This document shows positions 7,956 through 31,176 of a DNA stretch of 64,000 nt, in pieces. The position numbers and the translations under genes are program-made. Below the pieces are notes generated by a model. That model had not been told where the DNA came from. It was given only the letters and a program-made list of their open reading frames with translations, and searched no databases. Origin of the DNA: Moheibacter sediminis (GTDB lineage: Bacteria > Bacteroidota > Bacteroidia > Flavobacteriales > Weeksellaceae). How positions within the stretch are numbered: the stretch's first letter is position 1; each line of letters opens with the position of its first letter. The stretch is from positions 62,001 through 126,000 of the forward strand of contig NZ_FWXS01000007.1 in NCBI RefSeq assembly GCF_900176425.1, given 5' to 3'.

Positions 7956-8042
7956 AGAGAGGTGTCCGAGTGGTTGAAGGAGCTACCCTGGAAAGGTAGT
8001 ATGCGGGTAACTGTATCGAGGGTTCGAATCCCTTCCTCTCTG
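7956..8042 (+). tRNA. tRNA-Ser (anticodon GGA)
   Basis: Acceptor arms AGAGAGG (7956-7962) and CCTCTCT (8035-8041) pair fully, with discriminator G8042. The anticodon stem CTACC/GGTAG encloses the loop with GGA at 7990-7992. A long variable arm (TATGCGGGTAACTGTA region) and the T-loop GGTTCGAATCC identify a class II serine tRNA. CCA is not encoded. The 3' end from 8027 is the integration site of the island that follows. Confidence 0.97.
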
Positions 8043-8045
8043 CAA
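8027..8045 (+). repeat. left attachment site (attL)
   Basis: AATCCCTTCCTCTCTGCAA, covering the T-arm and acceptor 3' strand of tRNA-Ser plus three bases. It is repeated exactly at 21313-21331; the bases on each side differ (G/A here, T/T at the right copy), which sets the core at 19 bp. Confidence 0.92.
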
Positions 8046-8077
8046 ATAAGAAATTTACTTAAGTTTAGTTGAGATTT

Positions 8078-8108
8078 AAATGCGCTGAAAATCAGCGCAT
8101 TTTTTATT
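8078..8108 (+). terminator. terminator after tRNA-Ser, supplied by the island
   Basis: AAATGCGCTGA and TCAGCGCATTT form a perfect 11-bp stem with an AAA loop, followed by TTTATTT. It lies inside the left end of the integrated element, so after integration the tRNA transcript would end on element DNA. Confidence 0.88.
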
Positions 8109-8157
8109 TCATTACAATTTTTCGAATCATCTAAACTCAAATAAAATTAAAAAATAC

Positions 8158-8179
8158 GTCCTTTTTACCGTCCCCTTTT
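8158..8179 (+). repeat. left pair of GTCC(CC)TTTT repeats, candidate integrase arm sites
   Basis: GTCCTTTTT at 8158-8166 and GTCCCCTTTT at 8170-8179, starts 12 bp apart, in the same orientation as the pair at 21225-21246 near the right end. They also sit directly before a TATCTTTA box and a TTTATCGATAAA palindrome (8186-8197) ahead of the integrase start, so occupancy could also control integrase expression. Confidence 0.6.
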
Positions 8180-8206
8180 ATTATCTTTATCGATAAATAA
8201 TTCAAG

Positions 8207-9502
8207 ATGGCAAGTGTAACTTTTGTATTGAAGGAAAATAAATCTCCTACCTCTATAATCTTGTTGTTCAGGTATGATAACAAAAGAGTGAAGATTTACA
8301 CCAAACAGGTTGTTGACCCAAAGTTTTGGGATAAGCAAAAACGAAGGGTGCGGAATTCAATTAAAGCTGATTTTTCTATTAATGGAACCTTAAACGAAAT
8401 GGAAAATGTGATTCTGGAACTTTTTGAAAGGATTACACAGGAGTTTGGTCGGAAACCGGAGCCAAAGGAATTAAAGAATCTCTTTGAACTGGAATATTTT
8501 GAGAGCAAACCCCAGTTTTCCAAAAAGAAACATAAATCTTTACTGGAAGTGTTTGATGAATACGAAAAACGGATGCTTGCGGAAAACAAGCCAAAATCGG
8601 CAGAAAAATACAGTGAGGTAAAAAAGGGATTAATCGAATTTGGCAAAAAGTATAAATATGAAATTCAATTTGAAACCATAAATGAAAATTTCAGAAATGA
8701 TTTTATTGAATATATGCGTACGGAAAAACTCTATGCAGAAACAACTATCCACCGCAAACTTAAGTTTGTAAAAACAATTATTAACTACGCTATTGACTGC
8801 AAATACATCAGGGAGATGAATATAAATTTGAAACGGTTTGTTACTCCCTATACAGAGGCGGATACCATATCATTAACGCAGTCAGAGTTGGAAGAAATTG
8901 AGAATCTGGATTTATCCAAAAGCCCTAAACTTGACAGGGTAAGGGACAAATTTTTATTGGGTTGTTACACAGGGTTAAGATTCTCAGATTTTATCAGAAT
9001 CAATAAAAATCATATAGAAGATGGAAAATACCTTGTAATTAAACAGAAGAAGACTGATAAGATAATCACACAACCATTTTGGAATTCCGTCAAACTTATA
9101 TTTGAAAAATACGAGTATAATCTTCCCAAGCCTATTTCGGAAAGTAATTTCAATTCTTATTTAAAGGAAGTAACTAAGCTGTGTGAAACTCTCAAACGAG
9201 AGCAGGAGATAAAGCAGAATGTAAAAGGAAAAGTGGTCAGGATAACTAAACCTCGACATTTGTTAGTTACAAGTCATACTGCACGCCGGACTTTTTCAAC
9301 CTTGAAGGCAGAAAGTGGTTGGGATTTAGAGGATATTTCGACTGCTACTGGACACGCAAGTATAAAAACGCTCAGAACTTATATCAAACTAAATGACAAG
9401 CAGAAAGCAGACCGTCTTGCAAAAATTCATGACAATATGGAAGAAAAGAAGCAGGGGAAGAATAAAGAAGCAAAGGTTGTTCAAATGAAGGTGTCTAATT
9501 AA
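8207..9502 (+). CDS. tyrosine recombinase / integrase
   Basis: A 431-residue site-specific recombinase of the Bacteroidota type: an N-terminal arm-binding region (about 1-90), a SAM-like core-binding domain (about 110-210) and a catalytic domain. Visible catalytic elements are the box I Arg in GCYTGLRFSDF (near 265), HTARRTFST (His-x-x-Arg, near 360) and TGHASIKTLRTYIK, with the final His and the nucleophilic Tyr. It should integrate and excise the element at the tRNA-Ser repeat next to it. The C-terminus after the Tyr is a charged tail. The unknown gene follows 11 bp later. Confidence 0.95.
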   Translation: MASVTFVLKENKSPTSIILLFRYDNKRVKIYTKQVVDPKFWDKQKRRVRNSIKADFSINGTLNEMENVILELFERITQEFGRKPEPKELKNLFELEYFESKPQFSKKKHKSLLEVFDEYEKRMLAENKPKSAEKYSEVKKGLIEFGKKYKYEIQFETINENFRNDFIEYMRTEKLYAETTIHRKLKFVKTIINYAIDCKYIREMNINLKRFVTPYTEADTISLTQSELEEIENLDLSKSPKLDRVRDKFLLGCYTGLRFSDFIRINKNHIEDGKYLVIKQKKTDKIITQPFWNSVKLIFEKYEYNLPKPISESNFNSYLKEVTKLCETLKREQEIKQNVKGKVVRITKPRHLLVTSHTARRTFSTLKAESGWDLEDISTATGHASIKTLRTYIKLNDKQKADRLAKIHDNMEEKKQGKNKEAKVVQMKVSN

Positions 9503-9513
9503 ATTTTATATTA

Positions 9514-10326
9514 ATGGAATCCTATAAATATCAAGAACTGAGGAAACGGAATAAAGAGGCTGCTATACGGTTTTCTCGGATTTACCAATCTAAAAACTTA
9601 TCGGAATACAATCTAACGTCGGATGAGAGAGAACGTGAAGCAGAGTTTATTAAAAAATATATGGATAGCTATTCTAATAAAGTTGGGATTTTGTTTTCTG
9701 AAATAATTACGGACAAGGAATTTTCGGCAGAGGAAAAGGAAACGTTTGTAAAGGAAATGTTTAAACCTCATCTTGTTCAGTTTTTGAGAATTTTTGAAAG
9801 AATGAGAAATGATGGGTTCAAAACAGGAAACCATATTGGCGGAAAAACATACGATTCCTATCTGATGGAAAAATTCCTTGAGGTGGATTTTGGGCATTTT
9901 GTGGATAATGAATATAAGATTTCTGAGATTGCTCGTCTGTATCAAAATAATGATATTTTGTCCAATTATTCACCGCTTCTTACTTACTTAAATACTACAT
10001 ACAATTCAATAATGAATCATGATTACGATAATACAATTTTTGTAAATAAAGTAGCTTTAGATTTGCTCAATGAATTTATGAAAGAATTTTGTATTGATCC
10101 CTACAGTGATATTAGTTTCATTTTTCAACAGATGAAAAAAGATCATTTGCTTAGGAATGTTCCTCACAAAGAATTTATGTGTTGGTTGAAAGATGAGAAA
10201 CTAATCCGAGAAAAAGATTATGATAAAATTTACGGCATAGGAAATTTTAAATCACTTGATAAATCAACCAGTAGTGCAAGACTAAATCATTATTTTAGAC
10301 TCAAAGAAAAATATCTGGAACTATAA
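9514..10326 (+). CDS. element protein of unknown function
   Basis: A 270-residue, highly charged, mostly helical protein without signal peptide or membrane segment. I do not recognise the family. The C-terminal 70 residues (FIFQQMKKDHLLRNVPHKEFMCWLKDE... then TSSARLNHYFRL) look like a compact helical, perhaps DNA-binding, domain. It lies 11 bp after the integrase, in the same orientation and apparently co-transcribed, so a role in recombination control or in element regulation is possible but unproven. Confidence 0.7.
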   Translation: MESYKYQELRKRNKEAAIRFSRIYQSKNLSEYNLTSDEREREAEFIKKYMDSYSNKVGILFSEIITDKEFSAEEKETFVKEMFKPHLVQFLRIFERMRNDGFKTGNHIGGKTYDSYLMEKFLEVDFGHFVDNEYKISEIARLYQNNDILSNYSPLLTYLNTTYNSIMNHDYDNTIFVNKVALDLLNEFMKEFCIDPYSDISFIFQQMKKDHLLRNVPHKEFMCWLKDEKLIREKDYDKIYGIGNFKSLDKSTSSARLNHYFRLKEKYLEL

Positions 10327-10332
10327 TTCCGG

Positions 10333-10362
10333 AAATCGGAAATAACAGCCATAAATCGGAAA
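10333..10362. repeat. two AAATCGGAAA repeats 20 bp apart before the HTH gene
   Basis: AAATCGGAAA occurs at 10333-10342 and 10353-10362, exactly 20 bp apart (about two helical turns), in the 71-bp gap before the excisionase-like gene. This fits an operator bound by a dimeric regulator, possibly the HTH protein itself. Confidence 0.5.
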
Positions 10363-10397
10363 CCGAGTAAACTCAATTTTGTGCCAAACAAATAACA

Positions 10398-10688
10398 ATG
10401 GTACAATTTATAACACTTTCGGTAGATGATTTAGAAGCGATTATTAAACGGTCAGTTTTAGATGCTTTAGGTTCTCAAAATCCAAGTAATCAGTTGGACG
10501 ATGATGAATTCTTCACTCGAAAAGAAACTGCCAGAAAACTTCATATATCACTCGGCACATTAGACTCCTATTCTAAGTTAGGGCTTATAAAAGCAGAGAA
10601 AATCGGACATCGTGTTCTCTACAAAAAATCTGAGATAAACGAGGCTCTGAGAGAGAAGATAAACTCGATAAAATTCAAGTCTAAATAG
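10398..10688 (+). CDS. excisionase/MerR-like helix-turn-helix protein
   Basis: A 96-residue protein. Residues about 40-90 form a winged helix-turn-helix of the excisionase (HTH_17) type: FFTRKETARKLHISLGTLDSYSKLG, then IKAEKIGHRVLYKKSEINEAL. The N-terminal 35 residues are a separate helix. Such proteins direct excision or regulate replication and integrase genes in Bacteroidota mobile elements. It is followed 7 bp later by the Rep-like gene, so the two are probably one operon. Confidence 0.85.
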   Translation: MVQFITLSVDDLEAIIKRSVLDALGSQNPSNQLDDDEFFTRKETARKLHISLGTLDSYSKLGLIKAEKIGHRVLYKKSEINEALREKINSIKFKSK

Positions 10689-10695
10689 TAAGGTT

Positions 10696-11598
10696 GTGAT
10701 AGACTATCAAGTTAGCAAGGTTACGCACCTGCCTAAGGATTTATTAGATAGATATTACCGATCTGAAAAAAATATGATACCATTTGAATGGAGAGGTACT
10801 ATGTACAAGCCAATTTATCACAGTGGAAATGAACTATTAGTAAAAAGTTTTAATGCAGAGTTAGAAGGAATAAGATTAAATCTAAGAAATGATGAGTTAA
10901 TTGTCAGTAATTCTCTCCATAAATTTCAAAAGGAAAATAATTACTCAGACTTTGCTCATTCAGAGTTAGTTGAAAGTATAGATAGATTGTCTGAATTTTT
11001 GGGTATCAATTCAAAGCTGTTCAAACTTTCAAAGCTGGAAATAGGTGTAAATACTGAAACTGAATATGCTGATGAATATTGGAATTCAATATTGCACTAT
11101 AAAAATAAACCATTTAATAGTATGTTGAAAGGGACGAAGGCTTATGGTAAAAAGATAATTATGGAGCAGATAAGTGTAAAATCTTATAATAAAACAACGG
11201 AAAACTATTTACATTATGGTGAGGCAATTAGAAGAAACTTGTTAAGAACTGAAATTGAACTTAGAGGTAAGAAGCAAATGGTTGTTGCTCCGAATTTAGA
11301 ATCTTTAAAGAGTAAAGATGTAATATGTAAATTGAGAACTAAATTTCTTTATTATTTTGAGCGAATTATTTTTGATGAATTATTTGATTTGAAGGGGATT
11401 AAAAATCAGGATTTAGAACTTTTGTTTGCTGGTAAAAATTCGGATTATTGGAAAACCTTCAGAAAAGTCAATATGGAAAGTTATAAGAAACGTAAACAAA
11501 AATATAATCGCCTGCATTCCGAGCGTAAAATCGAAAGTTTCAATGATGAAATATTTTTACAAATAATACAAAAAATGGATTATTTGATTAATGAATAA
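10696..11598 (+). CDS. putative replication initiator (rolling-circle/phage-type Rep)
   Basis: A 300-residue protein starting at GTG 10696, 7 bp after the HTH gene. Its core has the pattern seen in plasmid and filamentous-phage Rep proteins: KLEIGVNTE, then a central MLKGTKAYGKK, ISVKSYNKT and LRTEIELRGKKQM. No clear HUH motif was found, so the family call is tentative. If correct, the excised circle could replicate, using the repeat-rich DNA just downstream as origin. The alternative is an uncharacterised element protein. Confidence 0.5.
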   Translation: MIDYQVSKVTHLPKDLLDRYYRSEKNMIPFEWRGTMYKPIYHSGNELLVKSFNAELEGIRLNLRNDELIVSNSLHKFQKENNYSDFAHSELVESIDRLSEFLGINSKLFKLSKLEIGVNTETEYADEYWNSILHYKNKPFNSMLKGTKAYGKKIIMEQISVKSYNKTTENYLHYGEAIRRNLLRTEIELRGKKQMVVAPNLESLKSKDVICKLRTKFLYYFERIIFDELFDLKGIKNQDLELLFAGKNSDYWKTFRKVNMESYKKRKQKYNRLHSERKIESFNDEIFLQIIQKMDYLINE

Positions 11599-11686
11599 TT
11601 TGCTTTTTCCAAACATGCTATATGTGTGGAAAAAGGGGAACATAAATAATAACTACAATTAATCCAATAAATATTATTTCAGAGTT

Positions 11687-11848
11687 GAGACAGTGAGACA
11701 ATCATTAAAAAATGATAAATTCTTAGAAAGAAGTAGAAAAGTAGGTGTAGAAGAGAATAAGTTACATTCTTAACCTCAAAATCTTGAGACAATTGAAATG
11801 TAGTATGTTTTTTGAGGACTTGTCTCGCAAATTTTTTCAATCTGTCTC
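11687..11848. repeat. five GAGACA/TGTCTC motifs, candidate origin iterons
   Basis: GAGACA at 11687-11692, 11695-11700 and 11786-11791; TGTCTC (the inverse) at 11821-11826 and 11843-11848. The middle copies face each other as TTGAGACAA and TTGTCTCG. The set starts 89 bp after the Rep-like gene. Confidence 0.45.
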
Positions 11849-12119
11849 ATTAAAAATAAGGTAATTAATTGTATTGTAGGTAGTTTGTGGCAAATTTGAA
11901 TTTTATAAAATAAATATTTAAAAGCGATAGTGTAGAGTCAGATGAAGCTATTTTCAATTTTTAATTTAGAGAGAAGGAATAAAGTAACTTTATTATCTTT
12001 GTTCCAGATAAAAATATAATAAAAGACCTTTTAAAGGTTTTAGAATATAGTACTTTTTAAAAGTCCTTGTTTACAGGAATCGGCAAAATTCATCAAACAG
12101 TTAGGACGGATATAATAAA

Positions 12120-12232
12120 GTACGCCAGTTTGGCGTACCTGCTCCGTTATTTCTGTTTAGGCTTTGCCGAGCCTCTGTAAGCTAACGTGATGCACGGTAC
12201 GCTTTTTTTATTGCGTTTACGGTTTCCCGTAA
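12120..12232 (+). ncRNA. structured hairpin cluster of unknown role (attenuator, small RNA or oriT)
   Basis: GTACGCCA/TGGCGTAC (12120-12138, loop GTT) is a perfect hairpin. Its right arm contains GCGTACC (12133-12139), which can instead pair with GGTACGC at 12196-12202, followed by seven T. Between them lies GGCT/AGCC (12160-12173). A further hairpin, TTACGG/CCGTAA, is at 12217-12232. The two alternative pairings with a T-run look like an attenuator, but an origin-of-transfer structure is equally possible. Confidence 0.45.
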
Positions 12233-12320
12233 GGATTTCCAAAGTACTCAAACTAATTTTGAAAATTTTAATGCAAATCAATAATAATTTGTGTTAGATG
12301 AATAAAATTTTAGGAAATCT

Positions 12321-12779
12321 ATGAATACTATAAAATACGAAAAAAGTAACCTACATATATTCAGCTTACATATTGTTAGCCTTTTGATTGGGAGTGCTAT
12401 TTATATTCTTTTTAGAACCTCTACTCTTAAAATATTCTCGTGGTTTGAGGCAATCGGAATTAATGTTATTGAGAGCAATTTGAGAAAAAAAAGCGTTCTC
12501 ATTTCTCAATATTTTCCTGATTGGTTCTTGTATTCACTTCCTGATGGTTTGTGGATTTTTTCATATGTATGTCTAATGCTTAGCATCTGGAGAAAGTCGA
12601 TTTCCAAACAAAATACATTTTGGATAAGTATAGTGCCCTTAGTTGCTATAGGATCAGAAATATTACAATTTTTTGGATTAGTACAAGGAACTTTTGATAT
12701 GGTAGATGTTCTCTGTTATTTGATAGGTTTCTTTCTACCCTTTTTAATTTTAAATAAATCAATTAATTATAAATTTTAA
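12321..12779 (+). CDS. small integral membrane protein, unknown
   Basis: A 152-residue protein with four predicted membrane segments: about residues 13-32, 72-90, 98-115 and 122-143. The motif pattern SLPDGLWIFSY, then GSEILQF and DMVDVLCYLIG, is loosely similar to VanZ-like membrane proteins, but I cannot assign a family with confidence. The next gene begins 11 bp downstream, so the two may be expressed together. Confidence 0.65.
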   Translation: MNTIKYEKSNLHIFSLHIVSLLIGSAIYILFRTSTLKIFSWFEAIGINVIESNLRKKSVLISQYFPDWFLYSLPDGLWIFSYVCLMLSIWRKSISKQNTFWISIVPLVAIGSEILQFFGLVQGTFDMVDVLCYLIGFFLPFLILNKSINYKF

Positions 12780-12789
12780 AACGTAAATT

Positions 12790-13338
12790 ATGAAAAGAAG
12801 TGTAAAGCACTCAATCTCAGCTATGGCTTTAGCATCATTCATGTTCATTGCATTTGGAAGTATGGATGATGACAAAAATGAATCAGATTCAAGTTCGGGA
12901 GGGACATCCGTAAATGCAGATGTCTCAACTACTAAAAAAATTGGAGAAACTTTACCCACAAAGTATTTTGATGTAACCGTGAATTCAGCAGGTGTTGATG
13001 ACAGAGTTAATACTGGAAACGAATTTTCTAATCTTCCCAGAGAAGAAGGAACTCGGTATTTGATAATTAATACCACTTTCAAAAATACAAGTAATGAAAG
13101 TAGAGCAATTTTTGAAGGAGAAGTATTAATAAATTATAATGGGCAAGAATATTTGTATGACAAGTCTGAAGTTGTAATGGCTGAGGGTTGGGGTTTATTC
13201 TTTGACCAAATTAATCCTTTAACTTCAAAAACTACTAACATAGTTTATAAAATACCTGCTGAAATTAAAGGAGTAGCCTATTATAGACCAGGACGTTCAG
13301 GTAAAAAGGATTTAATTGAACTTGGAAATATAGAATAA
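12790..13338 (+). CDS. secreted DUF4352-like protein
   Basis: A 182-residue exported protein. Residues 1-25 form a signal peptide without the lipobox Cys (AFGSMDDD), followed by a Ser/Asp-rich linker and an immunoglobulin-like beta domain. The pattern GETLPTKYFDVTVNSA, RYLIINTTFKNTSNE and TNIVYKIP matches the DUF4352 (telokin-like) type. These domains sit on the cell surface or in the periplasm, function unknown. A strong terminator follows, separating it from hsdR. Confidence 0.72.
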   Translation: MKRSVKHSISAMALASFMFIAFGSMDDDKNESDSSSGGTSVNADVSTTKKIGETLPTKYFDVTVNSAGVDDRVNTGNEFSNLPREEGTRYLIINTTFKNTSNESRAIFEGEVLINYNGQEYLYDKSEVVMAEGWGLFFDQINPLTSKTTNIVYKIPAEIKGVAYYRPGRSGKKDLIELGNIE

Positions 13339-13360
13339 CGAAGAAACTAAAAATATTAAT

Positions 13361-13389
13361 AAAAAGCGAACAGCAATGTTCGCTTTTTT
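13361..13389 (+). terminator. terminator after DUF4352 gene
   Basis: AGCGAACA (13365-13372) pairs with TGTTCGCT (13377-13384), loop GCAA; A-run before and six T after. Confidence 0.88.
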
Positions 13390-13421
13390 GTTTTCTATCA
13401 TCTGTTTTTTATATTAACGAT

Positions 13422-13429
13422 TATATTTG
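13422..13429 (+). promoter_or_regulatory. -7 box of the hsd operon promoter
   Basis: TATATTTG matches TAnnTTTG. It lies 28 bp before the hsdR TTG start; a T-rich stretch upstream could serve as the -33 region but is not a clear TTTG at the right spacing. Confidence 0.55.
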
Positions 13430-13456
13430 CAGCACACAATATGAGGATATTATAAT

Positions 13457-15802
13457 TTGACGTCATTTTCAGAACACGACACAAGAGCCAAGTTTATTGA
13501 CCCACAGCTAAAATCGGCTGAATGGGAAGAATCTTGTATTGTTCGGGAATATTACTTTACAGACGGTAGAAAACTTTCTGGAAACAAGAGAGGAGAACGC
13601 TTATTTGTAGATTATCTTTTAAGATATAAAAATGTCCCATTGGCAATAATTGAAGCTAAACGCTACGATAAACAGCCAACAGAAGGCTTGCAACAAGCCA
13701 TTGACTATGCTCAAAAATTAAAAATTGATTTTGTTTACTCCAGTAACGGTAAGCAAATTTATGAGTTTTGTATTTCTATGGGAAAAGGAGATTTTATTTC
13801 AAATTATCCCAACCCTGAAGAGCTATACAATAGGATTTTCATTCAAAAAAATGGTATAAAAGAAAAACTACTAAGTATTCCATTTTACCTGACTGGGGAT
13901 TTTAAACCTCGATATTATCAGGAAATTGCGGTAAATAAAGTTGTAGAAGCAATTGCAGAAGATAAAAAACGTATCCTTTTGACTTTGGCAACTGGAACAG
14001 GAAAAACTTTTATTGCGTTCCAAATAGCCTATAAATTGTTTACAGCTCGTTGGACTGTGGACAAAATGGAGCGAAGACCGAAAATTCTGTTTTTGGCTGA
14101 CCGAAATATTTTGGCTGACCAAGCTATCAACACATTCAATCCTTTAGAAAAAGATTTGGTAAAAATCAATGGGGATGAGATAAAAAGTAGAAATGGGAAG
14201 GTTCCGACCAATGCCAATGTATTTTTTGCCATCTATCAGGCTATTGCTGAAAAAGAAAATATTGGAGGTTTTTACAAACAATATCCCACTGATTTTTTTG
14301 ACATTGTTATCATAGACGAATGTCATCGAGGTTCTGCCAATGAAAATGGTTCTTGGAGAGATATTTTAGATTATTTCAGTACAGCTGTTCATTTAGGACT
14401 TACAGCAACTCCGAAACGTAACGATAACGTAAACACTTATAATTACTTCGGAAAACCTGTTTATGAATACTCTCTCAAAGATGGAATTAATGACGGATTT
14501 TTGACACCTTACAAAGTCAAACGTATTAGAACCAATATTGACGAATACATTCCAACAAAAGACGACATTGTAGTAAGTGGAGAGCTTGAGGATAGAATGT
14601 ATGGACTTTCAGATTTTGAAAATAAAATTATTGTTGAAGACAGGACGGACTTAATAGCTCGGGCAATTCTGATGAATATCCGAGAAATGGATAAAACCAT
14701 TGTGTTTTGTGTCAATCAACAACACGCTTTGATGATGCGAGATGCAATCAACAAGCACAAATCTGTAAACGACCCACATTATTGTGTGAGAGTTACAAGC
14801 GATGAAGGAGATATTGGAAAACAACTTTTGGAGAGATTTCAGGATAATGATAAAGACATTCCTGTAATTCTTACCTCATCTCAGATGCTTACCACTGGCG
14901 TAGATGCCCGAAATGTAAGAAATGTTGTTTTAGTTCGGGTCATCAATTCAATGGTAGAATTTAAGCAAATTGTAGGTAGAGGAACTCGTGTTTTTGACAA
15001 TAAAGATTTTTTTACTATTCTCGATTTTACGGGAGCAACAAATAATTTTTATGATAAAGAATGGGACGGATTGCCAGATGAAGAAATCATAATTGATGGT
15101 GGAGATGATGTAAACCCCAAACCACCAACAAAGCCAAAGCCTAAACCAAATCCAACTGGCGATAATGACGATACAGGCGATGACGGCTTCATAACACCTG
15201 AACCGCCAAAAGAAAAAATTGTAGTCAAACTAAGTAACGGACGTAATCTTCGTATTACAGACATAGAAATTCGTTACGTTGGAGATGATGGAAGACCGCT
15301 TACAGTTTCTGAGTTTTTGGAAAAGTTAATTGAATTTTTACCCAATTTATTCAGTAGTGAAAAACAACTTCGAGAATTGTGGAGCAAGCCCGAAACAAGA
15401 GAGGAACTTCTCACGAAATTAGGACAAACAGGTTTTGACGATGAGCAAATTGAAACGCTCCAAAAGATGTTTGAAGCAGAAGAAAGCGATGTGTTTGATT
15501 TGCTTGCATTTATAAGTTACAGTAAAGAATTGGTAACAAGAACGCACCGAGCAGAAACCACCAAACAGAAATCAGATTTTTTTAAAACATACGAAAATGA
15601 AAAGGCTCAACAATTTTTATATTTTGTATTAGACCGATACAAAAGAGACGGAATTGAAGAGTTGAAAAGAGATAAACTTTCCGAACTCATTCAGTTGAAT
15701 GGATTAGGAACAACGCAGGAAGCTGCCAAGGTTTTTGGCAATGCGAATAATTTAATTAATGCCTTTTACAAATTACAGCAAGTAATGTATCAGGCAGTGT
15801 AA
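13457..15802 (+). CDS. hsdR: type I restriction enzyme, R subunit (EcoEI-like)
   Basis: A 781-residue endonuclease/translocase subunit. The N-terminal nuclease domain has the PD-(D/E)xK pattern FVDYLL ... AIIEAKRYDK (about 50-70). The SF2 motor has TGTGKT (near 180), DECHRGS (near 286), LTATP (near 314) and QIVGRGTRVF (near 503). A Pro/Lys/Asp-rich linker at about 552-585 leads to the C-terminal region that contacts HsdM. The only workable start is TTG 13457, since an in-frame stop lies at 13442 and the next ATG is far inside. hsdM follows after 4 bp. Confidence 0.96.
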   Translation: MTSFSEHDTRAKFIDPQLKSAEWEESCIVREYYFTDGRKLSGNKRGERLFVDYLLRYKNVPLAIIEAKRYDKQPTEGLQQAIDYAQKLKIDFVYSSNGKQIYEFCISMGKGDFISNYPNPEELYNRIFIQKNGIKEKLLSIPFYLTGDFKPRYYQEIAVNKVVEAIAEDKKRILLTLATGTGKTFIAFQIAYKLFTARWTVDKMERRPKILFLADRNILADQAINTFNPLEKDLVKINGDEIKSRNGKVPTNANVFFAIYQAIAEKENIGGFYKQYPTDFFDIVIIDECHRGSANENGSWRDILDYFSTAVHLGLTATPKRNDNVNTYNYFGKPVYEYSLKDGINDGFLTPYKVKRIRTNIDEYIPTKDDIVVSGELEDRMYGLSDFENKIIVEDRTDLIARAILMNIREMDKTIVFCVNQQHALMMRDAINKHKSVNDPHYCVRVTSDEGDIGKQLLERFQDNDKDIPVILTSSQMLTTGVDARNVRNVVLVRVINSMVEFKQIVGRGTRVFDNKDFFTILDFTGATNNFYDKEWDGLPDEEIIIDGGDDVNPKPPTKPKPKPNPTGDNDDTGDDGFITPEPPKEKIVVKLSNGRNLRITDIEIRYVGDDGRPLTVSEFLEKLIEFLPNLFSSEKQLRELWSKPETREELLTKLGQTGFDDEQIETLQKMFEAEESDVFDLLAFISYSKELVTRTHRAETTKQKSDFFKTYENEKAQQFLYFVLDRYKRDGIEELKRDKLSELIQLNGLGTTQEAAKVFGNANNLINAFYKLQQVMYQAV

Positions 15803-15806
15803 GGAT

Positions 15807-17297
15807 ATGAAAGTAGTGAATTTACAATCAAGAATAGACAGAATTACAGACATTCTCCGCAGAGACGATGGAATAAGCGGAGCAATGCACTATACCGAGC
15901 AAATCAGTTGGATTTTATTTTTAAAATATCTACACGATTACGAAGAAACTAAAGCCTCTGATGCTCTCATTGATGGCAAACAATACAAATACATCATTGA
16001 CACCAAGTTCCGTTGGGATAATTGGGCTTATCCACTCAAAGAAGATGGAATGTATGATTTGAAAGGAGCAATGGGAGGAGATGACCTCATCCAGTTTGTA
16101 AACAACGAACTGTTTCCTTACTTGCAAAGTTTCAAATCCAATCCGCAGGAAGTAAAAACTGTAAAATATAAAATTGGAGCAGTTTTCGAGTTTATCAATA
16201 ACCGAATTGCAAGCGGACACACACTAAGAGAAGTCATAGAAAATATTGCAGACCTTAGTTTTCAAAGTCAGGAAGACTTATTTGAGCTAAGTATTATTTA
16301 TGAAAACCTGCTCAAAGGAATGGGAAGCGATGGCGGAAATTCAGGGGAATTCTACACGCCTCGTCCTGTTATCAAAGCAATGGTTGATGTGCTTGAACCA
16401 AATGTAAATGATACCATTTATGACGGTGCGGTTGGAAGTGCAGGATTCTTGATTCAAGCATTTGATTACGTGATACAAAAGAAAAATGAGTACAGCACCA
16501 CTCAATTAAAACACATCAAAGAAGGGATGTTTTTCGGAAACGAGAAGACACCTTTGGCGTATGTAATGGGAGTGATGAATATGATTTTGCACGGTATCGA
16601 AAGCCCGAACATCTACAAGCAAAATACGCTTACCCAAAATATCCGAGATTTTCAGGAGAAAGACCGTTACTCCGTAATCCTCGCCAATCCGCCTTTTGGT
16701 GGTAAGGAAAAGAAGGAAGTCCAAAATAATTTTCCAGTTGAAAGTTCTGCAACAGAATTATTGTTTTTGCAACATTTTATGAAAAAATTGGCTTTGAATG
16801 GAAAAGCAGGTATTGTCATTCCCGAAGGAGTTTTGTTTCAAGCCAATAACGCATTTACGGCTGTAAAAAAGGATTTGTTAGATAATTTTAATCTTCATAC
16901 GGTATTGAGTTTACCAATGGGTATATTCTTACCATATAGCCCTGTTAAAACGAGTATTTTATTTTTTGAACGTAAAGGCGGAACACAAGATGTTTGGTAT
17001 TACGAAATTAATTTAGAAAAGAAACTCACAAAAAATAAACCGATACAATACGAGCATATTGCTGACTTTGTAGAATTGTATAAAACACGTGCTACAACAG
17101 AAAATTCTTGGCTTGTAACCGCTGACGAAATACGAAAGCGTAATTACGATTTGAGTGGTAAAAATCCAACAAAGCAAAAAGAAATAATCCATCAATCTCC
17201 AAACGAAATTTTAGCAGACATCCAAAGCAATGATAAAAATATCAATTTGCTTTTGGCTGAAATTGACAACTTAATTCAGAAAGGTTATGAAAGATAA
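15807..17297 (+). CDS. hsdM: type I DNA methyltransferase, M subunit
   Basis: A 496-residue N6-adenine methyltransferase subunit. The N-terminal HsdM helical domain covers about 1-130; the catalytic domain has the SAM-binding motif TIYDGAVGSAGFLI (near 205) and the catalytic motif NPPFGG (near 294). GEFYTPRPVIKAM before motif I is typical. Motif I reads DGAVGSAG rather than the common DPACGSGG, a modest variant that should still bind SAM. It ends inside the start of hsdS (11-bp overlap), indicating coupled translation. Confidence 0.96.
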   Translation: MKVVNLQSRIDRITDILRRDDGISGAMHYTEQISWILFLKYLHDYEETKASDALIDGKQYKYIIDTKFRWDNWAYPLKEDGMYDLKGAMGGDDLIQFVNNELFPYLQSFKSNPQEVKTVKYKIGAVFEFINNRIASGHTLREVIENIADLSFQSQEDLFELSIIYENLLKGMGSDGGNSGEFYTPRPVIKAMVDVLEPNVNDTIYDGAVGSAGFLIQAFDYVIQKKNEYSTTQLKHIKEGMFFGNEKTPLAYVMGVMNMILHGIESPNIYKQNTLTQNIRDFQEKDRYSVILANPPFGGKEKKEVQNNFPVESSATELLFLQHFMKKLALNGKAGIVIPEGVLFQANNAFTAVKKDLLDNFNLHTVLSLPMGIFLPYSPVKTSILFFERKGGTQDVWYYEINLEKKLTKNKPIQYEHIADFVELYKTRATTENSWLVTADEIRKRNYDLSGKNPTKQKEIIHQSPNEILADIQSNDKNINLLLAEIDNLIQKGYER

Positions 17298-19134
17298 GTT
17301 GCCAAAAGGTTGGGAAGAAACTACATTAAATGATGTTTGTGAAATTATTACAGATGGCACACATCACACTCCAAAATACGAAGAGAAAGGAGTTATCTTC
17401 CTATCGTCTAAAAATGTAACTAAAGGACAAATCAATTGGAATGATGTTAAATATGTGTCTGAGGAATTGCACAATCAACTACAAAAAAGAGTATCTCCCA
17501 AAATCAATGATATACTTTTAGCTAAAAACGGAACTACCGGAGTTGCTGCAATCGTAGACAGAGAATTAGTATTTGATATTTATGTGAGCTTAGCTTTACT
17601 TCGCCCCAAAAATGATATATTACCCAAATTCTTGCTTAACTTCATAAATTCACCTAAGGCAAAAGAACAATTTAATTCGAGGCTAAAAGGGGTTGGTGTC
17701 CCAAATCTTCATTTGAGGGAAATCAAAGAAGTTAGTCTTAATATACCTTCCCTCGATGAGCAAAAGCAAATTGTTTCAGTTTTAGATAAAACTTTTGAAA
17801 AATTAGACCCAACGATTGCTTTGATAGAAGAAAATATCCAAAAATTAAAACAACTTAATGAAAGTGTTTTAGATGAGGTGTTTAGAAACTCTGATAAGTT
17901 TGTTTCCTTTTTAGATTATGTATCTGTGAGTCGAAAAACCATAACTCCCGAACACGATAAAGAATATAGTATAATTGGACTTGAAAATATCGAAAGTAAT
18001 TCAGGGAAACTGGTGAATTTTAAGCCAATTAAGGGTTCGGAGAGCATTAGCAGTAAAGTTATTTTCAAAAAAGAAAATATTTTATATGGCAAGTTAAGAC
18101 CATATTTAAATAAAGTTTATTTGGCTGAATTTGATGGAATTGCAACAACTGAAATTATTCCATTTACAGTAGATAAAAATATGTTCGACGAAAAATATAT
18201 TTTGTATTTTTTGAGGTCTCCTTTTTTCTTGGAAAAAGTGAATTTGAGTTGTTCGGGAGCAAGAATGCCAAGAGTAACTACTGAATTTTGGAAGACATTA
18301 TTAATTCCATTCCTCACAATATCTGAACAACAACGCATAGTTGAGTATCTAAATCAAACAACCGAGAAAAATCAAAAACTAAACCTACACTACCAAAATA
18401 AATTAGAGGCTTTAAAAAGGCTAAAAAACAGCGTATTGGATAGTGCGTTTAAAGGAGAGTTGAGGAGAGCAAAAGTTATTCCTATTACTCAACCAGTAAT
18501 TGATCCATATTTTGCACGAACTAAGAAATTCAATGCAAAGAAAAAAGCAGATAAACAAGCGATGATTATTGCCCTCGCATTGGAAGCTCACGAAAAAATT
18601 GGAAAATCATTATACCGAACAAAAGGAGAAAAAACAGTTGAGATTCTTGAAAAACACCTAAATTTAGATTTTGGAAGAGAAGCAATAAAAATGACTGCTG
18701 GACCCGCTGATTTTAAGCATTTGGTGAACGTAGTAGAACCTTTGGCAAATGAAAAAAAATGGTTCTACACGCAGGAAATAAAAGGAGAAAATTACGATGG
18801 TCATAAATACATAAAAGCCGAAAATTTTAATCCATTTATGATGAGATGTGTACAAGATTTGAAAACTAATTTGAATGAAGTAAAGAGAGTCATCAATCTT
18901 TTTGCAGATATGAAAACTACCCGAATTGCGGAAGTCATTGCAACTACCTACACAGGTTGGAATAACTTAATTGTCCGAAAATCTCACATTGATAGCGATG
19001 CTATAGTGTCAGAAGCAAGAGAAAACTGGCACGAAGCAAAACTGAAAATTGACCGTCAAGAATTTTTTGATGCAATCGAATGGTTGAAAAAGAATAATCT
19101 TACTCCCAAAGGGAATGGGAAAGAAGTAAATTAA
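17287..19134 (+). CDS. hsdS: type I specificity subunit with extra C-terminal domain
   Basis: A 615-residue protein; ordinary HsdS is 380-460. Residues 1-195 form target-recognition domain 1 and its spacer helix (GWEETTLNDVCEIITDG ... LDEQKQIVSVLDKTFEKLD). Residues about 205-390 form the second domain and spacer, closing with VLDSAFKGEL, where HsdS normally ends. About 220 further residues follow, mainly helical, with RTKGEKTVEILEKHLNL, MTAGPADFKHLVNVVEPLA and KKWFYTQE. The two half-sites of the DNA target cannot be read from sequence. The extension may be a regulatory or DNA-binding module; that is inference. Confidence 0.93.
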   Translation: MKDKLPKGWEETTLNDVCEIITDGTHHTPKYEEKGVIFLSSKNVTKGQINWNDVKYVSEELHNQLQKRVSPKINDILLAKNGTTGVAAIVDRELVFDIYVSLALLRPKNDILPKFLLNFINSPKAKEQFNSRLKGVGVPNLHLREIKEVSLNIPSLDEQKQIVSVLDKTFEKLDPTIALIEENIQKLKQLNESVLDEVFRNSDKFVSFLDYVSVSRKTITPEHDKEYSIIGLENIESNSGKLVNFKPIKGSESISSKVIFKKENILYGKLRPYLNKVYLAEFDGIATTEIIPFTVDKNMFDEKYILYFLRSPFFLEKVNLSCSGARMPRVTTEFWKTLLIPFLTISEQQRIVEYLNQTTEKNQKLNLHYQNKLEALKRLKNSVLDSAFKGELRRAKVIPITQPVIDPYFARTKKFNAKKKADKQAMIIALALEAHEKIGKSLYRTKGEKTVEILEKHLNLDFGREAIKMTAGPADFKHLVNVVEPLANEKKWFYTQEIKGENYDGHKYIKAENFNPFMMRCVQDLKTNLNEVKRVINLFADMKTTRIAEVIATTYTGWNNLIVRKSHIDSDAIVSEARENWHEAKLKIDRQEFFDAIEWLKKNNLTPKGNGKEVN

Positions 19135-19142
19135 ATAGACTT

Positions 19143-20972
19143 ATGGAAGCAAGACAATTAGATTTATTTGACTATAATGGTTTACCGATTATACATTCCG
19201 TTGTAGAGGCATTTCCTGATACTGAGTTTGAAGAATTAGAATACAAATCGGCACAAGGTGGACTTCCTAATGATTTTTGGAAAACCTATTCAGGTTTTGC
19301 AAATACTGCGGGGGGTATTATCATTTTGGGTGTTTCAGAAAAAATTGGAGTTTTGAGAATTGATGGACTTACAAATGAAAATATCCAAAAAATTCAAATA
19401 GATTTTTGGAATTCTGTAAATAACCCCGATACGGTCAACATTAATCTTTTAAGAAATGAGGATGTAAGAGTACTGGAAACGGAAGGGAAAAAACTACTTG
19501 CATTTAATATTCCATTAGCAAAACGGAATGAGAAGCCTATTTTTTTAACTAAAAATCCCTTTAAAAATACATATAAGAGAAATTTTGAAGGAGATTACAA
19601 GTGTACAGATGCTGAGGTAAGGAGGATGTTAGCTGATGCCGATACTACATTGCATCACGACAGTCGTATCTTGGAAAATTTCACTTTAAATGATATTGAT
19701 TTGAATAGTTTGAAGAAATACCGCCAACTTTTTTCTGCTAATAATTCGTCGCATCCTTGGTTAGTTTTGGATGATAAAGAGTTGTTAAGAAAACTTGGAG
19801 GGTATAGGATTGATAGAACTACTAAAATTGAAGGGATTACTTTAGCAGGTGTTGTGATGTTCGGAAAAGAGGCAAGTATAACTGATAGAGAGTGTGCTCC
19901 TAATTTTTTTCCAGATTTCAGAGAAATATTATCAGATGACGAAAATATACGATGGACAGACCGTGTATATCCTGATGGTACTTGGGAAGCTAATCTGTTT
20001 GAATTTTATATGAAAGTTTGGCCTATAATATCATCAAAACTTCCAAAACCTTTTCAAATCGAGAAAGGAAGAAGAAAAGATGAAACCCCTACTCATATTG
20101 CATTGAGAGAGGCATTTGTAAATAGTTTAGTTCATACTGATTATTCAGCCCCCGGAAATATCATAATAGAAATGAGAAAGGATAGATATACTTTTTCTAA
20201 TCCGGGAACTCTTTTAGTATCCAAATATCAATATTATAGCGGAGGAATAAGTGAGTGTAGAAATCCTAATCTTCAAAAAATGTTTATGATGATGGGAAGT
20301 GCTGAAAAAGCAGGAAGTGGGGTCAATAAGATTATGTCGGGTTGGGAGTATGCTCACTGGAGAAGACCTTATATTGAGACTTTTACACAACCTGATAGAG
20401 TGGAGTTGAATTTGCCAATGTTCAGTATGATTCCAGAAGAAACCTTATCTGAATTGAAGCAAATCTTTGGAGAAGATGTTATTTCAATTGGGAAGGATCA
20501 ATTAATAATCCTATCCTTCTGTCAAATTGAGGGTGAAATAACTAATAACAGATTGCAAAATAATCTACAAAGACACAAAGTTGATATTACTCAAATGTTG
20601 CAAGATTTATGTAAAAAAGGATATTTAATATCTGAAAACAGCGGAAGATGGACCACATATCATCTCAATAAAAATTTCAATGTGGACACCTCAAATGTGG
20701 ACACCTCAAATGTGGACACCTCAAATGTGGACACCTCAAATGTGGACACTTCAATTTCCATCAAAACTTCCTCTTCAAAATTAACTGATAAAATATTATT
20801 TTTCTGTCAAAGTGATTTTAAAACAATTAGAGAAATTGCTATTTATGTAGATAGAACCGAAAAACATTTAAAGAATAGGGTAATCAATCAACTGGTAAAA
20901 GATGGTAAATTAAGCAGAAAATATTCTGAATTACCAAATCACCCAGAGCAGGCATATAAAAAATCAGAATAA
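19143..20972 (+). CDS. AlbA_2-domain protein with C-terminal ATPase-like and winged-helix regions
   Basis: A 609-residue protein 8 bp after hsdS, clearly in the same operon. An AlbA_2 (Schlafen-type) domain lies at about 25-160: EFEELEYKSAQGGLP, GFANTAGGIIILGVSE and YKRNFEGDYKC. A histidine-kinase-like ATPase-fold region of the RecG-related type follows near 320-420: ALREAFVNSLVHTDYS, FSNPGTLL and GSAEKAGSGVNKIMSGW. Residues about 440-510 and 545-600 look like winged helices, separated by five NVDTS repeats. Such proteins occur as regulators or as partners in defence islands; a direct role in restriction is unproven. Confidence 0.88.
   Translation: MEARQLDLFDYNGLPIIHSVVEAFPDTEFEELEYKSAQGGLPNDFWKTYSGFANTAGGIIILGVSEKIGVLRIDGLTNENIQKIQIDFWNSVNNPDTVNINLLRNEDVRVLETEGKKLLAFNIPLAKRNEKPIFLTKNPFKNTYKRNFEGDYKCTDAEVRRMLADADTTLHHDSRILENFTLNDIDLNSLKKYRQLFSANNSSHPWLVLDDKELLRKLGGYRIDRTTKIEGITLAGVVMFGKEASITDRECAPNFFPDFREILSDDENIRWTDRVYPDGTWEANLFEFYMKVWPIISSKLPKPFQIEKGRRKDETPTHIALREAFVNSLVHTDYSAPGNIIIEMRKDRYTFSNPGTLLVSKYQYYSGGISECRNPNLQKMFMMMGSAEKAGSGVNKIMSGWEYAHWRRPYIETFTQPDRVELNLPMFSMIPEETLSELKQIFGEDVISIGKDQLIILSFCQIEGEITNNRLQNNLQRHKVDITQMLQDLCKKGYLISENSGRWTTYHLNKNFNVDTSNVDTSNVDTSNVDTSNVDTSISIKTSSSKLTDKILFFCQSDFKTIREIAIYVDRTEKHLKNRVINQLVKDGKLSRKYSELPNHPEQAYKKSE
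20679..20753 (+). repeat. five tandem 15-bp repeats coding NVDTS
   Basis: AATGTGGACACCTCA repeats exactly at 20679, 20694, 20709 and 20724; the fifth copy (20739-20753) has one C-to-T change. Since 15 is divisible by three, copy-number changes would shorten or lengthen the linker without shifting frame. Confidence 0.95.
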
Positions 20973-21312
20973 AACAATTGATCTCTAATTAACAAGCAAT
21001 AACCGAAAAGCGGTTGAGTCTATAATATGGTAAAATTTTTAATTTTAGATATTCAAATGCTATTCTGAGTTTATATAAAAAAAATACCTTGCAAACTGTG
21101 TTGAGAAAATACGAACTATTTGGAAATAGAGTAAACAATGTTTTAAGATAGATAAATAAACAGCTCTGTATGGTATAGAAAGTAATCACAATTTCAACTG
21201 CCTAAGTTGAAAATTTAAAAATAAGTCCCCTTTTGCGTCCCTTTTTCTAAATAACATTCAATTTTATTTATGTAACTAATTTTATTTCAATTTATTATAA
21301 CTAAAACAGTTT
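20973..21312. other. non-coding right end of the island
   Basis: No gene is supported between the AlbA_2 stop and the right repeat. The stretch is AT-rich and holds the right pair of GTCCCCTTTT-type repeats (21225-21246) and nothing else I recognise. Confidence 0.6.
21225..21246 (+). repeat. right pair of GTCC(CC)TTTT repeats, candidate integrase arm sites
   Basis: GTCCCCTTTT at 21225-21234 and GTCCCTTTTT at 21237-21246; starts 12 bp apart, the same spacing and direction as the left pair, 67 bp before attR. Confidence 0.6.
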
Positions 21313-21331
21313 AATCCCTTCCTCTCTGCAA
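21313..21331 (+). repeat. right attachment site (attR)
   Basis: AATCCCTTCCTCTCTGCAA, identical to 8027-8045. The bases before it do not continue the tRNA, so this is the orphan copy created by integration. Confidence 0.92.
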
Positions 21332-21492
21332 TTACAAATGGCACTATTGTAAGACGAATGGCGCTTTTTTTGTCTCAAAATTTGAGTTATATTTGGGCTG
21401 ATTCAGATTGTAAATTTTATACTTCATTAAATTTAAATCATTATCATTTTGAATCAAATTCAATTTTATTACTTTTAGAATTCATTAAACTT

Positions 21493-21954
21493 ATGTCAAA
21501 AAAGAAAATTCTATACATCGATTTAGATGGTGTGGTTGTGGATTTAATGCTTGAAGTCGAACGTGAACTCAAGGCAGATGATCAAAATTACAAAGGAATA
21601 GATGAGCTTATAGATAATTCCGAAACCGTTTTTCTAAATGCCCCACCAATGCTTCATGCAATTGAAGCAATCGAAGAACTGGAAAAATATTATGATGTTT
21701 TTATACTTTCTACTGCGCCTTGGGGCAATATTCATGCTTGGTCACAGAAAAGAATCTGGGTCGAACGTCATTTACCTTCTCTTTATAAAAAACTAATCCT
21801 AACTCACCGCAAAGACTTACTCAAAGGTGATTTCCTTATTGACGACCGCACCAAAAATGGTGCTGCCGAATTCTCAGGTGAGCATATTCATATTTTTGAA
21901 CCGAAATTTCCTGATTGGGACAGTGTTCTAAATTATTTAGTTCCTAAAAATTAA
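21493..21954 (+). CDS. 5'(3')-deoxyribonucleotidase-like HAD phosphatase
   Basis: A 153-residue protein of the 5' nucleotidase, deoxy (NT5C) family. The N-terminal HAD motif I YIDLDGVVVD, motif II FILSTAPWGN and the LIDDRTKNG acidic motif are present, and AWSQKRIWVERHLP fits the family. It would dephosphorylate deoxyribonucleoside monophosphates in the cytoplasm. The ATG at 21493 gives the expected N-terminus; the frame is open back to 21358 but that part is not protein-like. It is the first chromosomal gene after the island. Confidence 0.88.
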   Translation: MSKKKILYIDLDGVVVDLMLEVERELKADDQNYKGIDELIDNSETVFLNAPPMLHAIEAIEELEKYYDVFILSTAPWGNIHAWSQKRIWVERHLPSLYKKLILTHRKDLLKGDFLIDDRTKNGAAEFSGEHIHIFEPKFPDWDSVLNYLVPKN

Positions 21955-21969
21955 TATTAGAATTATATT

Positions 21970-22680
21970 TTGAAAACATTTCATTCAGCAAATAAAAAAT
22001 CTTCCATCCTCGAAAGGCTAGAGCCGAGCTTTACATTTGTAGATTTTATCATGATGGCATTTATGTCCTATCAATATTTCAAATTGTGGATGCAACCGGG
22101 AATAGGAGATGCTGAAAAGATTTTCCAAATGGCGGCATTGATGGGTTTCGAATTCATTATGGTGCATTCTGGTGTTTTTATGGCTGTGATGCCGCGCAAA
22201 CTTTCGTTGTTTCTTTTCGTTCCTGCTTATGGTTTGTTTGCTTGGGCATTTAATAGTATAATTGGTGGCGGAAATCTGGTAGTTTACATTTATATGTTTG
22301 CTGTATTCAACCGGATGCGTTTTGCTTTTTTCAATGTAGATGAAAATTTGAAAAACAAACAAATCGGACGGTCAGTCTTTGCTGCCATGACTTATTTCTT
22401 TTTGTTATTTGGAGTTGCTTTTGGAAGTTCAGTTTTACCTGAATTTGGATTAAATGACGTAAATCTCACACGCATCGGATATGACCAGGCCAAAACACAC
22501 GGCGGACTTTTTCTTGATGAACCACAAACAGCTATTTGTGCCGGAGCATTGTACTATTTATTTTTAGCAATGTATGCTTTGCCGGGAAAATGGTTCTGGA
22601 ACGAGGCTAAATTAAACAAATGGTCAGCGGACATGGAGACTCGCATGGAAAAAATGAAACAGAAAAAGGATAATAATTAA
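21970..22680 (+). CDS. integral membrane protein, unknown
   Basis: A 236-residue protein with about five hydrophobic segments (roughly 50-65, 75-95, 95-115, 130-150 and 185-205) and a charged C-terminal tail. I do not recognise the family. TTG 21970, 15 bp after the nucleotidase stop, is a possible start; ATG 22051 would remove 27 residues. The gene probably shares a transcript with the nucleotidase. Confidence 0.7.
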   Translation: MKTFHSANKKSSILERLEPSFTFVDFIMMAFMSYQYFKLWMQPGIGDAEKIFQMAALMGFEFIMVHSGVFMAVMPRKLSLFLFVPAYGLFAWAFNSIIGGGNLVVYIYMFAVFNRMRFAFFNVDENLKNKQIGRSVFAAMTYFFLLFGVAFGSSVLPEFGLNDVNLTRIGYDQAKTHGGLFLDEPQTAICAGALYYLFLAMYALPGKWFWNEAKLNKWSADMETRMEKMKQKKDNN

Positions 22681-22691
22681 ATCTATAAATT

Positions 22692-23351
22692 CTAAAAATA
22701 TTTTGAAATTTTTTGCAATTCCAATTCATTAAAATCAGAAACGACAATATTAGCTAGCGAATAATCTTGTTGAAATGTATTCATACTTTTAAATCCCGCG
22801 CAAAAAATTTCTGCGCGGTGCGCAGCCAGAATACCGTTCGTAGAATCTTCGATGACCATACAGTTTTCTTTGGATTCTTGAGCGATTTCAGCTGCTAACA
22901 AAAAGATTTCCGGATGAGGTTTGGATGCTTTCAAGTCTGCGCCGCTAATTTTTCCAGTGAAATATTTCTCCAAACCAAATTTCTCAAACACCATATCAAT
23001 GGTAGTTCGAGTAGCAGAAGAAGCCAAAACCAATTTCACATCATTTTGATAATAATGTTGAATCAAATCCCGCACGCCCGGCACCAAATCAAATTCCAAA
23101 TCATTGTAAAAATAATCTTTAAAAGCAGCACGCTTGCCAGTCATTAATTCATCGGTAGAATTTTTCAGGTTAAATTTTTCGATGATGGTCTCGAAAACTT
23201 TTTGTGTAGAGGCGCCCGTGAAAGTTGAATACAATTCCTCCGAAACATAAATTCCCAAACCTTCGAAAGTTTTATAATATGCCTTTCGGTGCAAAGGTTC
23301 CGTATCTACAATCACGCCGTCCATGTCAAACAAAACTGCTTTCAGTGCCAT
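22692..23351 (-). CDS. HAD-superfamily phosphatase (beta-phosphoglucomutase-like)
   Basis: A 219-residue HAD hydrolase with motif I LFDMDGVIVDTEPLH, a helical cap, the motif II region LVLASSATRTTID, Lys in ISGADLKASKPHPEIF and motif IV MVIEDSTNGILAA. This arrangement is shared by beta-phosphoglucomutases and small sugar-phosphate phosphatases; the substrate is not predictable. It is divergent from the tamB locus. Confidence 0.9.
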   Translation of the reverse strand: MALKAVLFDMDGVIVDTEPLHRKAYYKTFEGLGIYVSEELYSTFTGASTQKVFETIIEKFNLKNSTDELMTGKRAAFKDYFYNDLEFDLVPGVRDLIQHYYQNDVKLVLASSATRTTIDMVFEKFGLEKYFTGKISGADLKASKPHPEIFLLAAEIAQESKENCMVIEDSTNGILAAHRAEIFCAGFKSMNTFQQDYSLANIVVSDFNELELQKISKYF

Positions 23352-23588
23352 TTTCTCATTTTAGTTCAACAAATATAATAGTATTTGAGCCTGAGAAATT
23401 TTATAGCTTCATATAATTTTTATAACATATACCAAGTAGGAGATGAAACTGGAAGAGCAAAATTACGCACAAACTTAAATTTCAGAAGAAAGCAAGTTCT
23501 GTATGTTTTGTTAAATTTTAACAAAAGTGGTATCAATTTTGAAAGGTTTAACTTGGTTAAGGAAATTATCTTTGTTAAAATCTGGGCT

Positions 23589-30987: not shown

Positions 30988-31176
<189 letters not shown>

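Follow-up and report, generated by a model that had tools for sequence, protein, structure and literature searches.

A rod-shaped element, probably an RNA leader, ahead of the cargo genes of an integrative island at tRNA-Ser in Moheibacter sediminis

Introduction

What kind of element occupies the tRNA-Ser gene of Moheibacter sediminis, and what is the strongly folding segment that stands directly before its cargo? We analyzed 64,000 nucleotides of contig NZ_FWXS01000007.1 (positions 62,001 to 126,000 of the forward strand), hereafter the window, whose own coordinates are used throughout. Within it, 13.3 kb (8027-21331) is enclosed by exact 19-bp repeats. We consider it likely that the island is an integrative element with a circular form driven by its own replication protein (Rep) and with an attenuator-type RNA leader ahead of its cargo. 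The island taken alone is ordinary: a Rep-bearing integrative element at tRNA-Ser, with no recognized relaxase and with its closest relatives at ssrA. It is the leader that raises the importance of this locus above that of the island itself.

A structured element with covariation support

The gap between the rep gene and the first cargo gene, which starts at 12321, folds far better than shuffled sequence, with z scores of -4.6 on the plus strand and -6.9 on the minus strand. By folding, a covariance model, and covariation, the segment 12049-12216 (+) forms a rod, with a long-range pairing between 12133-12139 and 12196-12202 and a U-run at 12203-12209. Upstream lies TATCTTTG (11994-12001, +), a match to TAnnTTTG, the consensus of the flavobacterial sigma-A -7 box (PMC9723704). 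A DNA search with the rod gave matches in 52 of 296 genomes of the family at E ≤ 0.001, mostly pieces of fewer than 60 bases; only three longer relatives (L282-L284) were taken up, with 72-73% identity to the rod, two of them in islands with an integrase and an HTH_17 gene. In a four-sequence alignment, 10 of the 46 pairs had changed on both sides yet still paired.

Searched against 320 family genomes at E ≤ 0.01, the covariance model R1 gave 65 matches, spread over 56 genomes. In an alignment of 55 matches (A9), the 52 distinct copies gave a covariation value of 0.633; shuffles gave 0.174, and slid pairings gave 0.044-0.079. A structure-blind MAFFT alignment returned the outer rod, with 16 pairs, 11 of them with double changes, whereas 30 column-shuffled alignments returned no structure. 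Folded individually at minimum energy, all 52 copies form a long rod. In the apical hairpin, the 3′ strand complements the tail that precedes the U-run (in the window, GCGTACC with GGTACGC). Across the copies, the mean complementary run is 4.75 with the own tail and 3.35 with the tails of other copies, and none of 5000 permutations reached as high a value; a second cut of these data gave 6.29 and 4.92, again with 0 of 5000 permutations. The tail contains a U-run in 50 of the 52 copies.

The element thus has one feature expected of a cis-regulatory RNA, a conserved structure backed by covariation. Because a promoter box, a rod, competing pairings, and a U-run follow one another just before a gene, we read it as a new 5′-leader RNA, probably a transcription attenuator. 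The first cargo transcript would begin with a leader of ~300 nucleotides, of which 12049-12216 would be the conserved, rod-shaped part. Pairing of the apical 3′ strand with the short tail just before the U-run would create two alternative folds, and the leader RNA probably switches between them and so attenuates two genes, one for a membrane protein and one for a DUF4352 protein. The structure is well supported; transcription and switching are our inference.

A number of points weigh against this interpretation. Folding alone cannot tell the strand, because the minus strand folds at least as well as the plus strand. The alignment A9 was itself fitted to the R1 structure, and no more than the outer rod emerges from the blind alignment. 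Double changes occur in 46 of 46 pairs, which is weak evidence given an average of 35.9 in shuffles, and in helices 3, 5, and 8 the share of paired cells is only 75-84%. The apical strand is empty or shorter than five letters in 14 of the 52 aligned copies, the count of U-runs has no control, and the permutation tests, like the test of exported genes described below, ignore kinship among the copies. Strong copies score as much as 26-29 bits on their reverse strands, which puts the weakest copies, at 31-38 bits, near that floor; these include L031 and the copy that occupies the same slot (34.3 bits) in a sister element of Chryseobacterium binzhouense (L095). Since reverse strands come as high as 29 bits, position and sequence signature are also needed to support the weakest matches.

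None of 4227 Rfam models, among which we take the Flavo-1 motif to be included, matched the window segment or ten of its relatives. No published description of this structured RNA was recognized within the literature queries made, and a plasmid search with the rod found nothing. The exact word GGCTTTGCCGAGCCNCT occurs in 32 viral-contig stretches, probably by chance.

Distribution and genomic position of the element

An order-wide sample gave R1 matches in 14 of 346 genomes (E ≤ 0.001), 12 of them in the same family, the source genome included, and two in another family. Among 96 loci examined, ten had a match with E < 0.01; an eleventh (L082, E 0.035) was dropped. Genomic context was compared across 54 loci: 40 of the 65 family matches with wide context, the window, L282-L284, and the ten loci just mentioned.

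In the window the rod ends 105 nucleotides before the first cargo gene. A same-strand open reading frame (ORF) of at least 80 codons starts no more than 140 nucleotides 3′ of the element in 44 of the 54 loci (49 under a looser counting rule), whereas a divergent ORF lies within 140 nucleotides 5′ of it in only three. The TAnnTTTG box occurs within 80 nucleotides upstream in 42 of the 54 loci, compared with 56 of 1080 control stretches. Judged by simple hydropathy, the next gene encodes an exported-like protein in 39 of 49 cases and in 241 of 762 control ORFs (Fisher p 3e-11), although these cases are not independent, because some copies precede related genes.

Position also bears on a different function for the rod, as the single-strand origin, or another single-stranded DNA origin, of a rolling-circle replicon, conserved as folded DNA. 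Both of its strands fold well, and in the window and five further loci (L079, L360, L364, L368, and L380) a rep gene on the same strand precedes it by 0.1-0.4 kb. However, a Rep match is found in only nine of the 40 loci chosen by the element alone, and most copies are preceded by the promoter box and followed at once by a same-strand gene; we therefore think such an origin unlikely.

The same 40 loci show how closely the element is tied to islands. An integrase match lies within ~10 kb on either side in 22 of them. For background, ten genomes hand-picked among the carriers hold 46 integrases in about 46 Mb, which would place one in ~2% of 20-kb stretches, with the qualification that the count of 22 used a somewhat laxer criterion; in these ten genomes, a hand count placed 10 of 16 copies within 10 kb of an integrase. 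From these two counts, many copies, though not all, lie in or near islands. That they often sit in islands, and before many different genes, could also mean that the rod is a mobile hairpin, akin to a miniature inverted-repeat transposable element or an attC-like cassette junction, that moves with cargo genes. The orientation 5′ of a gene, the covariation, and the pairing between apical strand and tail point instead to function at the RNA level, and we hold a mobile hairpin to be highly improbable.

Our preferred reading of the element as a leader RNA can be widened, and here we see about an even chance of being right: the copies would form an undescribed class of strand-exchange attenuators common to many exported or membrane cargo genes of islands, in which the apical strand and the pre-U tail compete so that one signal controls surface and secreted cargo, and whose carriers are often integrative islands, both in Weeksellaceae and in scattered Bacteroidota outside that family. 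Because a covarying leader precedes many different genes, the data suggest that islands of this group share a control point for exported proteins. The leader lends itself to a reporter assay, its covariance model can be used to annotate island cargo, and it opens the question of which signal turns on the surface genes of an island.

Limits of the island and its integration target

The original prediction placed an island in tRNA-Ser with limits readable to the base, and the repeats and the integrase family support this well. The window contains exactly two copies of the 19-bp AATCCCTTCCTCTCTGCAA, even with up to two mismatches allowed, at 8027-8045 (attL core, +) and 21313-21331 (attR core, +); 100 shuffles gave a mean of 0.01. 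ARAGORN finds an intact tRNA-Ser(GGA) at 7956-8043 (+), also matched by the Rfam tRNA model. Since the tRNA ends at 8043, the left repeat takes in its 3′ end and two bases beyond. The direct repeats at both limits thus copy the tRNA 3′ end, as is expected of a tRNA-integrated element. The integrase gene lies just inside the left end, 161 bp behind attL, and starts 164 bp behind the tRNA. The sequence identifies 8027-21331 as an integrative element of a Weeksellaceae-type genome, in which the tyrosine recombinase would have recombined the 19-bp core at the tRNA 3′ end and left the tRNA intact.

The tyrosine recombinase (8207-9502, +) matches the Pfam families Phage_integrase and Phage_int_SAM_5; with Arm-DNA-bind_5 it scores 22.5 bits, barely short of the 22.6 cut-off. 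Outside the window, the six closest integrases found all sit at ssrA: those of Cloacibacterium (a member of the Weeksellaceae; 62% identity), C. binzhouense (60%), Apibacter (51%), genome G120 (43-44%), and two Empedobacter (36% and 33%). Five of the six begin 148-195 bp behind the transfer-messenger RNA (tmRNA) gene. In Apibacter the element contig, whose first bases fall within the ssrA core, shares an overlap with the contig that carries ssrA, and in G120 two copies of the ssrA core lie 10.7 kb apart. The Apibacter muscae element contig (L096, 11492 bp) has a stated coverage of 1083x, which may reflect an excised, replicating form. Two further family integrases (L034 and L035; 31% and 34%) have no RNA gene alongside, and each contains an internal stop. 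A scan of genome contigs with the single integrase sequence gave no relatives. A scan with an integrase alignment gave 534, of which 80 were kept; among these and the window (81 entries), six have a same-strand RNA gene just upstream of the integrase (four tmRNA, one tRNA-Phe, and one tRNA-Ser), 69 have none, and six are cut off.

Near each end of the island lies a tandem RTCC motif pair (8157-8179 on the left, with a 12-bp spacing, and 21224-21246 on the right, both +), and these pairs are candidate arm sites that the integrase arm domain probably binds. The pattern RTCC-N7-8-RTCC occurs between the RNA gene and the integrase gene, and before attR where this is known, in nine of nine regions from seven elements, compared with 0 to 52 of 1000 shuffles per region.

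All six genomes of the genus, the source genome included, have an asparaginase gene, and in each of the five others a tRNA-Ser follows it. The search for the same integrase beside tRNA-Ser in related genomes found no integrase of the island kind in any of these five congeners (E ≤ 1e-40), the closest relatives found being those at ssrA. Four of the five contigs stop 42-345 bp past tRNA-Ser, and the next gene is visible in G009 only. There it is a chromosomal ortholog of window 31931-33286. In the window, 10.6 kb separates this gene from attR; a block with a TamB-like gene, kept elsewhere in the G009 genome, fills the interval (21332-31900). Window 21970-22677 has no match in the five congeners, and 21493-21951 has none in the three congeners searched.

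Several of these results pull away from the interpretation as a mobile island. Its G+C content (27-38% per kb) is no different from that of the rest of the window. Because the right side is rearranged in G009, that genome presents a tRNA-Ser without the island but not a two-sided empty site; no such site was found among the congeners, and the G009 right flank is not syntenic. The shuffle figures for RTCC pairs serve as a guide only, because the pattern was shaped on the regions counted, and the single motif CGTCCCNTTTT is not enriched in the window (six occurrences with one mismatch, 4.8 expected). We infer the mobility of the island from its sequence rather than from observation. The original prediction had itself named relatives with all the island genes at this locus, no empty site, and no compositional difference as signs that would speak against it; the compositional difference is indeed absent, yet five of five congeners have the tRNA-Ser without an island-type integrase. 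The sister element at ssrA, which shares the gene order of the island, lends further support to the island at tRNA-Ser, as do these congeners.

Core genes, replication, and mobilization

In the sister element L095, at ssrA of C. binzhouense, an integrase, a 262-aa counterpart of the window's 270-aa protein (30% identity), an HTH_17 protein (54%), and a replication protein are followed by relatives of the window genes 12321-12779 (54%) and 12790-13338 (62%), with further cargo behind them. The 270-aa protein (9514-10326, +) is mostly helical and its function is unassigned; the protein after the L095 integrase is 29-30% identical to it. Its structure model (predicted local distance difference test, pLDDT, 69.2) was too poor for a fold search. 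The HTH_17 protein (10398-10688, +) matches Pfam and a PHROGs excisionase family and probably directs excision.

The next gene (10696-11598, +) encodes the putative rolling-circle replication initiator, with a RepDE-like predicted fold on the basis of alignment, model, and fold matches; it would copy the excised circle. A model built from seven sequences (pLDDT 83.6) matches RepDE (4cwe) in Foldseek with E 1.4e-7, and superposes on 4cwe with Z 12.6 and 5.9 Å over 218 residues. RepDE and a Geobacillus initiator score Z 12.6, 12.2, and 11.7, and the next unrelated fold scores Z 6.7. Eight residues (D3, S73, N119, F140, Y164, K166, R184, and E186) are invariant in 15 of 15 aligned Rep proteins. 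Counting the source genome, 20 of 296 family genomes contain relatives of the window Rep (E ≤ 1e-4), and among PDB sequences the Rep profile matched one unrelated chain only. The replication slot itself differs between elements: a weak Rol_Rep_N match in the window, a weak Rep_trans match in the sister element, and a clear Rep_1 match in the Apibacter element.

Against the assignment as an initiator stand the low template modeling scores of the Foldseek matches to two RepDE chains (0.44-0.52), a Rol_Rep_N match of 12.6 bits that is below the Pfam cut-off of 23.7 with no Rep_trans match listed, and the absence of a BLAST match between the L095 replication protein and the window Rep. Behind the rep gene, an imperfect palindrome with four copies of TGAGACA (approximately 11683-11855; DNA fold z -4.0) is a candidate replication origin or nick site. 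It stays a guess, because the word is scarce in the five relatives scanned (at most one per strand); nor is it enriched in the window (seven occurrences, 7.5 expected).

The Rep model also matches an Inoviridae G2P protein in BFVD, and this, together with integration at a tRNA by a tyrosine integrase and the match of phage protein families to the DUF4352 and AlbA_2 proteins, would suit a phage satellite or remnant rather than a plasmid-like integrative element. On the other hand, no capsid, portal, or large-terminase family was found among ten island proteins with Pfam or seven with PHROGs, no capsid gene was recognized in the island, and the small-terminase match of the HTH protein is at chance level (E 0.075). 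Viral-contig scans for Rep relatives gave none with the window protein, none with A4, and one locus with A3. We consider a phage origin rather unlikely.

A closer contest is with an ordinary integrative mobilizable element (IME), in which Rep is a relaxase and the island is mobilized by a co-resident conjugative element; we put this only a little short of even. In Firmicutes, MobT/Rep_trans proteins serve as both relaxase and replication initiator (PMC5704250), and the same slot in relatives holds the Rep_trans or Rep_1 match noted above. Because of this double role in Firmicutes, the window Rep may double as a relaxase and self-encoded mobilization is possible. Pointing the other way, no coupling protein or origin of transfer was identified, relaxase activity of Rep is putative, and Pfam recognized no canonical relaxase family among the ten island proteins.

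Cargo genes

Our preferred reading, an integrative element with a leader RNA before its cargo, places two genes under the leader. The first (12321-12779, +) encodes a 152-aa predicted membrane protein, VanZ-like and membrane-bound by eye and with no Pfam match; the second (12790-13338, +) encodes a DUF4352 protein by Pfam, with an N-terminal hydrophobic segment by eye. The pair occurs in the Apibacter element too.

The type I restriction-modification (R-M) operon follows, with HsdR, HsdM, and HsdS together, the set that defines this type. HsdR (13457-15802, +) belongs to the EcoAI/FtnUII family (NCBIfam NF046051, 904.8 bits, cut-off 550). HsdM (15807-17297, +) and HsdS (17287-19134, +), the latter with two Methylase_S stretches, were identified by Pfam and PADLOC. 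Last comes a protein with SLFN_AlbA_2 and HATPase_c_4 domains (19143-20972, +; Pfam, PHROG 12156). The gene content of the original prediction (integrase, HTH, Rep-like, R-M operon, and AlbA_2 protein) is thus borne out, through Pfam matches and, for Rep, a fold match. Its description of the island as carrying defense holds, by family membership, for the R-M operon, and a defense role of the AlbA_2 protein is putative only. Absent from that prediction were the structured element, the motif pairs resembling arm sites at both ends, and the occurrence of the pair 12321-12779 and 12790-13338 in the sister element.

Three side observations may be added. A 15-bp tandem repeat of five copies (20679-20754) gives the AlbA_2 protein a run of NVDTS repeats, which separates its ATPase part from its C-terminal part and may be a length-variable linker. 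In the two related elements, two cargo genes named by eye, one PIN-like (about 500 aa) and one ASCH-like, recur together at L095 11818-13666 and L096 9180-11028 and form a candidate toxin-antitoxin or defense pair. Elsewhere in the window, 49225-49333 (-) matches the Rfam S-adenosylmethionine riboswitch above the gathering score.

Comparison with known systems

The MobT/Rep_trans IMEs of Firmicutes, as described in PMC5704250, resemble the island in their integrase, their target at the end of a gene, and their initiator of the rolling-circle replication type, and like the island they have no recognized mating-pore genes. The island differs from them in its phylum, its divergent Rep below Pfam cut-offs, the putative status of its relaxase, and its structured leader. 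Nearer in phylum are NBU1, NBU2, Tn4555, and Tn4399, which in the same account are small elements of Bacteroidota without mating-pore genes; NBU1 and Tn4555 also share with the island a tyrosine integrase and, probably, a recombination directionality factor. These four encode MobP relaxases (PMC5704250), whereas none was recognized in the island.

Like R-M systems of the EcoAI/FtnUII type, the island has an HsdR equivalog, HsdM, and HsdS, but unlike them its operon is followed by the SLFN_AlbA_2/HATPase protein, whose role is unassigned. The closest parallel to the leader lies in the Flavo-1 motif and structured 5′ leaders described in PMC9723704, which are likewise flavobacterial structured elements with TAnnTTTG promoters. 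The element described here differs in having no Rfam match in eleven copies, in often lying in islands, and in standing mostly before genes for exported-like proteins.

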